From the NCBI GenBank assembly GCA_027490225.1, contig JAIXYK010000058.1, positions 1 through 39,029 of the forward strand: a stretch of 39,029 nt of DNA, given 5' to 3'. The first letter of the stretch is position 1; each line of letters opens with the position of its first letter. Under the pieces are notes generated by a model. The model made no database searches, was not told the origin of the DNA, and saw only the letters and a program-made list of their open reading frames with translations. Of the stretch, positions 35,950 through 38,163 are shown piece after piece. Source of the DNA: Bacteroidota bacterium. Lineage in GTDB: Bacteria > Bacteroidota > Bacteroidia > M30B66. Position numbers and translations under genes: made by a program.

Positions 35950-37593
35950 CTACAATTCCCCGTCTGCATTCAAACAACTTAAGCAAGTCAAACCTTCCTT
36001 CGTCATTTTAAAAGTTTCACCGCGCATTTCTTCCCCATCTAGATTCTGAACATTCGGAATATCCCATAACAAATCAATCATGTTCTTATCGAATTTTACT
36101 ATTTGATTTTCCTTTAAATGGAGCACATAAGTAACCCTTTGCCCTCTCCATTTTTCTCCATCCTTTAAATTAAAATTAGAATTAAACACCAGTTCATTTC
36201 CATTTTCTTTTACATACGTATTAATTTGCCCTGCGCTTTTAATTGCTACTTTTTTATCTTCTCCACGTGCCAATTTCTCTATGGTCATGTAGTTATTTTC
36301 ATTGCCAGCATTCACCACATTTAGTTTAATACGCCCAGTAATTAGCTCATCACCATCATTAAAATAAAAACTCCAGTGGTCTAAACTTAAATTCTGCTTT
36401 AAGTTTACAGTGTTATCCATATTTGGTTTTACGTATAGCGTATCTGCGTCCTGTATTGCAAATGGAACCGATTCTAAAATCTTTCCCTTGGCTCTAAATT
36501 GATTGGTGAGCAAAACAGCTGCAACAATGCACAATATTAATCCAATGGTAAAAACTGCACCATTCACTGCACCCGGCCAATTCACATTTTTAAAACGTGG
36601 GTAAAAAATCAGTTTTATTCCAGCAATCAACAAAGCAATAACTGGTGCCAGCAGAAACAAAGCAAGACCAATGGCTGCAATATTTACATGTTTATCGTTG
36701 GCAAAAAATGCCGACATAAAAGCTTTTAATGAAAAACTTGAAACACCCTCATCATCATTAAAAGAAATTGCTTGTCCTTGTCCAATCACCGTTGTTAACC
36801 AAGTAATAAAAAATACAATACCTAAAACAAAAAGAAAAACACCAAAAGACCTACCCATCCAACGAATTAAATTTCTTATAAAATTTAAAATCGCTTCAAA
36901 TAACTCATTCAAAAAATTGGTAGCCCTCGACCCTACTTTTTTATCACGCAAAGTTCTGGATGCGCCTTCTGTAAATTCTCCCGCTTTTTTATTAATGCGT
37001 TCAAATTCCTCTTTAATCTTTTTTTCAATCGATTCAATAGTCACTGCTTCTCCACGCATTTGTAGTTTTTCTGCCGTAGTTTCGGCTTTTGGCAATGCAA
37101 TCCATAAAATTAAATACAACAATGGACCACTACCAAAGAAAAATAAACCAACCAAAAACGTAATACGCAACCAAACTGGATCAATGCCTAAATAATGCCC
37201 AACTCCAACACAAACACCACCCAGCATTCCCTCATCAGGATCGCGAAACAAACGTCTTTTTTCTTTTGAGTAAGCGTTTTCTTGCGAAAAATTAGACGAT
37301 TCATTCGCTGCAGTATTCGCATCAGTTTCCGCCTCTTCAGCATATACTTCTGGCTTGCCCATTATTTCAATCACATCGGCAACATCTTGCTCCAATACTA
37401 CCTGTTTGTTCTTCAATCGCTCTTGAAACAACTCTGCAATGCGGCTTTCAATATCACCAATTATTTCGTCCCGCCCTTCAGCAGCGCTAAAATAATTTTT
37501 AATGGTTTGAATGTATTTTAACAATTGGTTGTAAGCTGCCTCTTCAAGGTTAAACAGCATTCCACTTAAATTAATACTAATGGTCTTATTCAT
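35950..37593 (-). CDS. PspC-domain membrane protein
   Basis: 547 residues from the ATG at 37593 (MNKTISINLSG). A longer frame to 37671 adds sequence that lies within the upstream PadR gene and is not family-like. N-terminal domain with conserved RIAELFQERL, then the PspC domain at about 113-170 (RRLFRDPDEGMLGGVCVGVGHYLGIDPVWLR, with a hydrophobic helix to ALPKAE). Three more transmembrane helices lie at about 250-400, and the C-terminal half is a beta-rich soluble region. PspC proteins relate to envelope stress. The PadR-type regulator gene overlaps its start by 8 bp, so the regulator probably controls this operon. Confidence 0.93.
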   Translation of the reverse strand: MNKTISINLSGMLFNLEEAAYNQLLKYIQTIKNYFSAAEGRDEIIGDIESRIAELFQERLKNKQVVLEQDVADVIEIMGKPEVYAEEAETDANTAANESSNFSQENAYSKEKRRLFRDPDEGMLGGVCVGVGHYLGIDPVWLRITFLVGLFFFGSGPLLYLILWIALPKAETTAEKLQMRGEAVTIESIEKKIKEEFERINKKAGEFTEGASRTLRDKKVGSRATNFLNELFEAILNFIRNLIRWMGRSFGVFLFVLGIVFFITWLTTVIGQGQAISFNDDEGVSSFSLKAFMSAFFANDKHVNIAAIGLALFLLAPVIALLIAGIKLIFYPRFKNVNWPGAVNGAVFTIGLILCIVAAVLLTNQFRAKGKILESVPFAIQDADTLYVKPNMDNTVNLKQNLSLDHWSFYFNDGDELITGRIKLNVVNAGNENNYMTIEKLARGEDKKVAIKSAGQINTYVKENGNELVFNSNFNLKDGEKWRGQRVTYVLHLKENQIVKFDKNMIDLLWDIPNVQNLDGEEMRGETFKMTKEGLTCLSCLNADGEL

Positions 37594-37936
37594 GGTGCGT
37601 AGTTTCAAAAGGTTTAGTACGTGTATTTGCAACAGATTCCACCAGTTCGTCCCAGGTGGCAGTGAGTTCATTTAAGAAACTTCGTCCTTTTTCAGTAAGT
37701 CCGTAGTACTTTCTGGGCGGTCCCGATAACGATTCCTCCCATCGGTATTGCAACAGTTCAAAATTCTTTAATCGCGTAAGTAGTGGATATAACGTGCCCT
37801 CAACCACTATGAGTTTGGCAGCTTTCAAACGCGCTATGATGTCGTTGGTATAAGCATCTCCATCTTCTAAAACAGATAAAATGCAAAACTCCAAAACTCC
37901 TTTGCGCATTTGTGCTTTTGTGTTTTCAAGATTCAT
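37586..37936 (-). CDS. PadR-family transcriptional regulator
   Basis: 116 residues, a PadR winged-helix repressor of the small (subfamily 2) type. Typical pattern: RKGVLEFCILSVLEDGDAYTNDIIARL, VEGTLYPLLTRLKNFELL, SGPPRKYYGLTEKGRSFL, then a short C-terminal helix for dimerisation. It lies directly upstream of the PspC gene with an 8-bp overlap (ATGAATAA), so the two form one operon that the regulator probably represses. A perfect -7 box ends 4 nt before the ATG, suggesting a leaderless message, and a repeat array overlaps this promoter. Confidence 0.95.
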   Translation of the reverse strand: MNLENTKAQMRKGVLEFCILSVLEDGDAYTNDIIARLKAAKLIVVEGTLYPLLTRLKNFELLQYRWEESLSGPPRKYYGLTEKGRSFLNELTATWDELVESVANTRTKPFETTHHE

Positions 37937-37940
37937 GCTG

Positions 37941-37948
37941 CAAACATA
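37941..37948 (-). promoter_or_regulatory. Perfect -7 box for the PadR-PspC operon
   Basis: On the minus strand TATGTTTG, followed by C, matches TAnnTTTG exactly and ends 4 nt before the ATG at 37936, implying a leaderless or near-leaderless start. Confidence 0.6.
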
Positions 37949-37989
37949 GAACTATTTTAAATACGGTACTATGCATAACACAGTACTAT
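37949..37989 (-). promoter_or_regulatory. Candidate PadR operator: three repeats at 17-bp spacing
   Basis: G(A/T)ACTAT occurs at 37949-37955, 37966-37972 and 37983-37989, each exactly 17 bp apart. The middle copy starts an inverted repeat, GTACTATG-CATAA-CACAGTAC (37966-37986; one mismatch). The array begins directly next to the -7 box and covers the expected -33 region. Binding by the encoded PadR protein is an inference from position. Confidence 0.55.
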
Positions 37990-38038
37990 TTTGAAAATAA
38001 TATGTAACTTATTTATTATCAGTGATATTAATTTTATT

Positions 38039-38111
38039 GGGCGGCAATTCACGCTTTCCGCAATAGCTCCTTCGGAGGCTATTTGCGTCAATCGTGGCCG
38101 CAGGCATTTCG
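38039..38111. repeat. GC-rich structured intergenic element (copy C)
   Basis: A GC-rich block between divergent genes. It contains a near-perfect hairpin, CGCAATAGCTCC-TTC-GGAGGCTATTTGCG (38059-38087, two bulges), flanked by GCTTTC and GTCAATC, then GTGGCCGCAGGC. Blocks GCTTTC(C)GC, CTCCTTCGG, TATTT, TCAATC and GGCCG align in order with copy A (14804-14879, minus strand). Non-coding. Confidence 0.7.
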
Positions 38112-38163
38112 ATTTAGAGGTAAATTATCTTATAAATTAACATTCAATTCATATCAAAATTTT

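Follow-up and report, generated by a model that had tools for sequence, protein, structure and literature searches.

A conserved dyad as putative autoregulatory operator of the PadR-HAAS/PspC operon in Bacteroidia

The window (the whole stretch of DNA analysed, 39,029 nucleotides from a Bacteroidota bacterium) carries short repeats directly ahead of a gene for a PadR regulator, which raises the question of whether PadR controls its own operon through them. An earlier note had proposed this for the segment 37934-37989, describing three equally spaced sites that might be bound cooperatively. The repeats prove genuine: two of them form a 21-bp dyad that is conserved widely, and the third, weaker copy is a local addition. 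We put the probability that the segment is an autoregulatory operator of the PadR-HAAS/PspC operon at roughly 0.83.

The operon and its promoter

The two genes of the presumed operon are both on the minus strand.

37586..37936, minus strand: PadR regulator of the PadR-s2 type, 116 amino acids (PF03551, 61.2 bits against a cut-off of 27)
35950..37593, minus strand: HAAS-PspC-LiaI/LiaF-TM-Toastrack membrane protein (Pfam PF22564, PF04024, PF22571 and PF22744)

The regulator is small, as PadR-s2 proteins are (about 100 residues), has a PF03551 domain and shows their two winged-helix tyrosines and helix-4 tryptophan. Its nearest solved chain is PDB 5h20 (E 3.8e-40, residues 1-104), which we take to be from Bacteroides fragilis. 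Y29 and Y50 are tyrosines in all 145 PadR loci and align with tyrosine in all five PadR chains compared; W95 is tryptophan in 144, the remaining locus having no residue aligned there. We infer that these are the signature tyrosines and the helix-4 tryptophan named in PMC6457526 and PMC5050560.

The PadR stop codon overlaps the ATG of the HAAS/PspC gene (ATGAATAA), the two reading frames sharing 8 nt. All four domains of the second protein score above their cut-offs, HAAS narrowly (28.4 against 27 bits), and a PadR winged-helix gene here adjoins a HAAS protein fused to PspC, LiaI-LiaF-TM and Toastrack, the arrangement of the HAAS-PadR-PspC/Toastrack systems. Wherever the sequence runs on for at least 800 bp, at 139 loci, a PspC-like gene follows PadR without exception; the other 6 of the 145 are too short. 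The same neighbourhood is described in PMC11237479, which proposes signalling from HAAS to PadR as an alternative to a two-component system; that study, in its accessible text, deals with proteins and gene neighbourhoods and does not describe an operator.

The repeats lie in an intergenic region of 281 bp, bounded by the PadR gene and by a plus-strand gene with a weak polyketide-cyclase match. On the plus strand GAACTAT starts at 37949 and GTACTAT at 37966 and again at 37983, so that G(A/T)ACTAT does recur in steps of exactly 17 bp, as the earlier note had it. The array proper is 37949-37989; the rest of the segment first proposed, 37934-37948, is taken up by the PadR start codon and the -7 box with 4 nt between them.

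37936, minus strand: predicted transcription start, on the A of the PadR ATG, giving a leaderless mRNA (4-nt gap from TTTG to ATG)
37948-37941, minus strand: -7 promoter box TATGTTTG, consensus TAnnTTTG (consensus and position at -12 to -5 from PMC9723704)
37949..37955, no strand: third, degenerate half-site GAACTAT (ATAGTTC on the minus strand), immediately upstream of the -7 box
37966..37986, no strand: candidate core operator, a 21-bp dyad GTACTATGCATAACACAGTAC (minus-strand reading GTACTGTGTTATGCATAGTAC) with arms GTACTATG and GTACTGTG, conserved in the class and of a TACT-N11-AGTA plan like that of cdPadR1 (PMC5050560)

The equal spacing of the three copies is by itself weak evidence, as it is only mildly improbable. 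When the 281-bp region was shuffled 2000 times with its dinucleotides preserved, a scan for three equally spaced 7-mers with at most one mismatch summed and a step of 8-40 found triples of this quality in 1.4% of the shuffles. Over the whole window the same scan counted 74 triples where 20 shuffles averaged 1.9, but a tandem repeat at the start of the window accounts for 69 of the 74. That repeat (1-500) shows steps of 14, 21, 28 and 35, which implies a 7-bp base period. A hairpin-like intergenic stretch at 38036-38116, with the core AATAGCTCCTTCGGAGGCTATT, is a small dispersed palindromic repeat: parts of it recur in the host genome on C55, on C62 and as two neighbouring pieces on C8, at 85-96% identity over 26-54 bp.

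Because GTAC is self-complementary, the direct repeat at 37966 and 37983 and the inverted repeat at 37966-37986 are one thing seen twice, and the only copy additional to the dyad is GAACTAT. A reading as direct repeats with three equal sites is rejected: the class-wide unit is the dyad, whose GTAC arms mimic direct repeats.

In Bacteroidetes promoters the -7 box spans -12 to -5 (PMC9723704). As only 4 nt separate the TTTG of the box from the PadR ATG, transcription is predicted to start on the A of the ATG, and the padR mRNA is apparently leaderless. Leaderless mRNAs are a known minority, 5.5% (PMC9723704). Of 277 long open reading frames in a sample of the host genome, 79 have TAnnTTTG in the 120 nt ahead of them, against 25 for the reversed motif, and the 4-nt gap forms a peak (6 of the 79; none at 3 or 5, one each at 6 and 7). 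A sigma-70 scan does not extend to promoters of the Bacteroidetes type.

With +1 on the A of the ATG, the dyad spans -50 to -30, and across the class too it sits on the promoter. TAnnTTTG follows the dyad at 11-18 bp in 93 of 98 confident sites, with none in range in the other five; the distance is 11-13 bp in 85 and 17-18 bp in 8. In a side control that includes pattern-found loci, 114 of 120 sites had the box downstream of the dyad and 3 had one on the upstream, opposite-strand side. The dyad contains TTG in 78 of the 98 sites, by arithmetic 19-21 bp from the -7 box where the spacing is 11-13 bp. Bacteroides promoters are reported to combine the -7 TAnnTTTG with a TTTG at around -33, a motif not found in Flavobacterium johnsoniae (PMC7366714). 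The dyad therefore normally overlaps the -33 element, and a dimer bound there would hinder the polymerase.

Conservation of the dyad across the class

The earlier note had suggested looking for the repeats upstream of orthologous operons, and what such a search finds is the dyad. PadR orthologues throughout the class carry a 21-bp GTAC(T/C)WTG-N5-CAWRGTAC upstream. The strict form GTAC-N13-GTAC occurs within 700 bp upstream of PadR at 60 of 124 distinct loci found by protein search; each other GTAC spacing from N5 to N30 occurs at no more than 6 of these loci, the 6 belonging to N30, that is, a 34-bp step. A position weight matrix (PWM) of the dyad, trained on sites from the same set of PadR loci, scored above the maximum of a null of mononucleotide shuffles at 98 of the 124. 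At the other 26 the score within 700 bp did not exceed that maximum, and there the operator is either not universal or situated further upstream. The full set of 145 loci includes 21 that were fetched with the dyad pattern, so the 124 give the unbiased dyad frequency; PWM training, the third-site offset counts, the -7 side control and the dyad-B, PspC, residue and 17-bp register counts all drew on the 145.

Among the nearest relatives, the window's PadR has matches in 32 of 40, two of them at paralogue level only. The consensus is visible upstream at most of the 30 orthologue loci; the strict form lies within 700 bp at 19 and the PWM exceeds the shuffled null at 28. The locus whose PadR is 91% identical to PDB 5h20 (L051) likewise carries the dyad.

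Searches that began from the DNA gave a similar picture. Of 295 class genomes, 95 contain the pattern GTACNNTGNNNTNCANNGTAC, at 102 places altogether; read backwards, it turns up in 5 genomes (6 strand matches). PadR positions are known for at least 70 of the 102, among the matches listed, leaving 32 unplaced; of these 70 sites, 60 precede PadR by 24-500 bp and 10 are found elsewhere. By hand count, 210 genomes have a PadR orthologue (E at most 1e-15) and only 90 of them the strict dyad, against 5 of the 85 that lack the orthologue (Fisher 3e-11), a co-occurrence that is partly circular because the dyad sits in PadR's own promoter. In the host genome the window's dyad is the sole match to a looser pattern at up to one mismatch, the backward control giving 2 forward and 2 reverse matches. 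The host's second PadR gene (contig C43) is without the dyad, the genome having that one match only at this tolerance, and the single paralogue promoter that gave a result (L164) has none, an observation to which we attach no weight.

Chance repetition in AT-rich intergenic DNA has in its favour the frequency of the lone triple in the shuffles. Conservation across the class refutes it for the dyad, and as an explanation of the repeats we regard it as hardly credible. Binding by a different regulator, or a transcribed hairpin, is improbable. Similar dyads do precede other genes in a few genomes, but the position and plan of the dyad fit PadR (cf. PMC5050560), and it lies upstream of the predicted start, hence outside the PadR mRNA in which a hairpin would have to form. 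Two sites away from PadR precede genes that by eye resemble creD and a TetR regulator, and similar sites may be used by other proteins too.

Some of the dyads seen elsewhere deserve a record of their own. At L216 a related dyad, GTACTTTGAATTTCAAAGTAC (locus offset 1445, minus strand), stands ahead of a creD-like gene, identified by eye, and may serve a different winged-helix regulator as its operator. In L207 and L208, two genomes of one family, another dyad stands before the gene of a small, apparently exported protein, its -7 box again 13 bp away. That gene is likely a second PadR target, and the pair of sites suggests that the factor acts in trans on a small regulon in this family. Several Bacteroidia lineages have, between dyad and padR, a small gene whose product is apparently exported and belongs, by eye, to differing families (L029, L047-L050, L065, L133, L137-L139, L145-L147, L152, L158 and others); it is likely the first gene of the PadR operon in those lineages.

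The plan of the site has a precedent in a different phylum. cdPadR1 of Clostridioides difficile R20291, also PadR-s2, binds TACT-N11-12-AGTA in its own promoter, as proven by EMSA, and its operator gives extra shifts at higher occupancy (PMC5050560). The window's 37967-37985 is TACT-N11-AGTA, likewise in the promoter of PadR itself. The cdPadR1 promoter has two separate dyads and the genome about 200 predicted motif matches (PMC5050560), whereas the window has one dyad and one half-site, a single match in the genome and a Bacteroidetes TAnnTTTG promoter. The words PspC and HAAS are absent from the main text of PMC5050560. LftR of Listeria monocytogenes, a PadR-2 protein with the signature tyrosines, has a partially palindromic operator (OP-1) in its own promoter with a Kd of 6.2 nM; its target is a putative multidrug transporter, and the likeness to the window is in regulator type and in the placement and partial symmetry of the operator (PMC6457526).

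A literature search returned no operator paper for the PDB 5h20 protein among the matches listed. None of the listed matches described a Bacteroidetes operator for this PadR by title, subscription papers lying outside the scope of the search, and of 1,816 papers containing any of four 8-mers of the motif the 20 listed looked unrelated by title. The PadR-s2 site type is already known; its class-wide presence on the Bacteroidia HAAS-PspC operon was not seen among the matches listed.

The third copy in family f1

The earlier note had taken three equally spaced sites as a hint of cooperative binding. The inverted repeat that it placed at 37966-37986 is the class-wide dyad, the conserved unit has two arms, and what is left of the proposal concerns GAACTAT, which reads as GTTC on the minus strand (37949-37952). 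A GTAC-like third half-site at +34 from the left arm occurs at 6 of 113 non-redundant loci, all of them in the window's family, f1, which is no more than background (4.2 +/- 3.6 per offset). As a class-wide feature in the window's register it is rejected, all six loci being in f1 with no enrichment elsewhere.

The f1 sample comprised 10 genomes, and an order-level sample gave the identical 10; one has no PadR match. GTTCTATGTTTG is present in 8 of the 9 PadR-bearing members, the ninth (L013) having a class-type promoter. From GTTC to the middle GTAC the distance is 17 bp in six loci and 18 bp in two. The TTTG-ATG gap is 4 nt in seven of the eight, the window among them, and 5 nt in one. These eight are also exactly the loci in which the -7 box lies 17-18 bp from the dyad.

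That coincidence suits an account in which the third element belongs to the promoter: GTTC would be kept as an upstream extension for a -7 box 4-5 bp further off, or simply by descent. In the 93 class promoters with a box, 85 have it 11-13 bp after the dyad and the eight at 17-18 bp are the f1 GTTC loci, where the shift takes the dyad's TTG out of the -33 position. Such an account is quite possible, somewhat short of even odds, but GTTCTANNTTTG has 13 matches in the host genome against 13 for its reversed control, and the sequences ahead of 75 host -7 boxes show no preference for GTTC. A general role for GTTC in extending the -7 box is accordingly unsupported.

That GTTC is not a general promoter element favours the other account, in which the 17-bp half-sites form two overlapping dyads with the middle GTAC in common, and a second PadR dimer, cooperative or in an alternative register, would cover the -7 box.

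37949..37969, minus strand: possible second, overlapping weak dyad (dyad B), GTACCGTATTTAAAATAGTTC, with the middle GTAC in common (PWM score 5.2)

Retention of GTTCTATGTTTG in the eight f1 loci stands out against its surroundings: the spacers from middle GTAC to GTTC have a mean pairwise identity of only 67%, and a single column of 25 upstream of the dyad is invariant, although the loci were chosen for GTTC and its own invariance follows from that choice. Dyad B scores 4.5-6.9 in 4 of the 9 f1 loci, while the maximum in this register at 111 non-f1 loci is 3.4; in the other 5 it scores below 0. NNTG, the signature of a left arm, follows the middle GTAC in 6 of the 9 but in only 3 of the 111 others, yet in the window itself CGTA comes after the middle arm, and the right half of dyad B is without the CA of the consensus. 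The 18-bp spacing in two of the eight loci and the want of enrichment at this register outside f1 also speak against a second dimer. Extra exact GTACs near dyads do favour the register, 6 of 19 falling at multiples of 17 bp (two at -17, four at +51) where about 0.5 would be expected. This test was post hoc, however, on 110 loci that included some found by pattern; the next best register, 18 bp, had 3 matches, and at least two of the six loci have a common leader sequence. We hold the overlapping dyads only tentatively. We read the third copy as having been added at the level of the family, whether as a supporting half-site or as a sequence tied to the displaced -7 box; of three equal cooperative sites, what survives is the eight f1 loci of nine and a weak preference for 17 bp.

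A candidate feedback loop

We infer that PadR represses the PadR-HAAS/PspC operon, a reading that is well supported because the dyad is class-wide, placed in the promoter, built on a cdPadR1-like plan and the single such site in the host. The first claim made for this locus, a candidate PadR operator with autoregulation, is thereby strengthened, the co-occurrence with PadR counting in part only. The direction of control comes from what is known of the PadR family.

A PadR dimer would sit on the 21-bp dyad with one winged helix on each GTACTATG-like arm. So bound, it would cover the -33 region and block sigma-A RNA polymerase at the leaderless promoter. The PadR and HAAS/PspC genes are presumably co-transcribed and translationally coupled, and since they overlap by 8 nt and would share one transcript, repression by PadR would close a negative feedback loop. 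The loop would presumably be released on envelope stress sensed by the HAAS/PspC protein. In f1 the third, weaker half-site against the -7 box may raise occupancy of the promoter.

A bolder extension, which we consider doubtful, is that in f1 an ancestral one-dimer operator has grown into a compact array of three half-sites, on which PadR switches register or binds cooperatively to give a sharper HAAS-PspC switch. If that were true, the middle GTAC in f1 would serve two dyads, the second abutting the -7 box where it has been displaced ahead of a leaderless mRNA, and other lineages with extra GTACs in this 17-bp register would have arrived at the array independently.

For the class as a whole, the dyad is a marker with which further targets can be found. 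From its fixed relation to the Bacteroidetes -33/-7 promoter one would expect repression to be simply steric, and the dyad makes the HAAS-PadR-PspC system directly testable.
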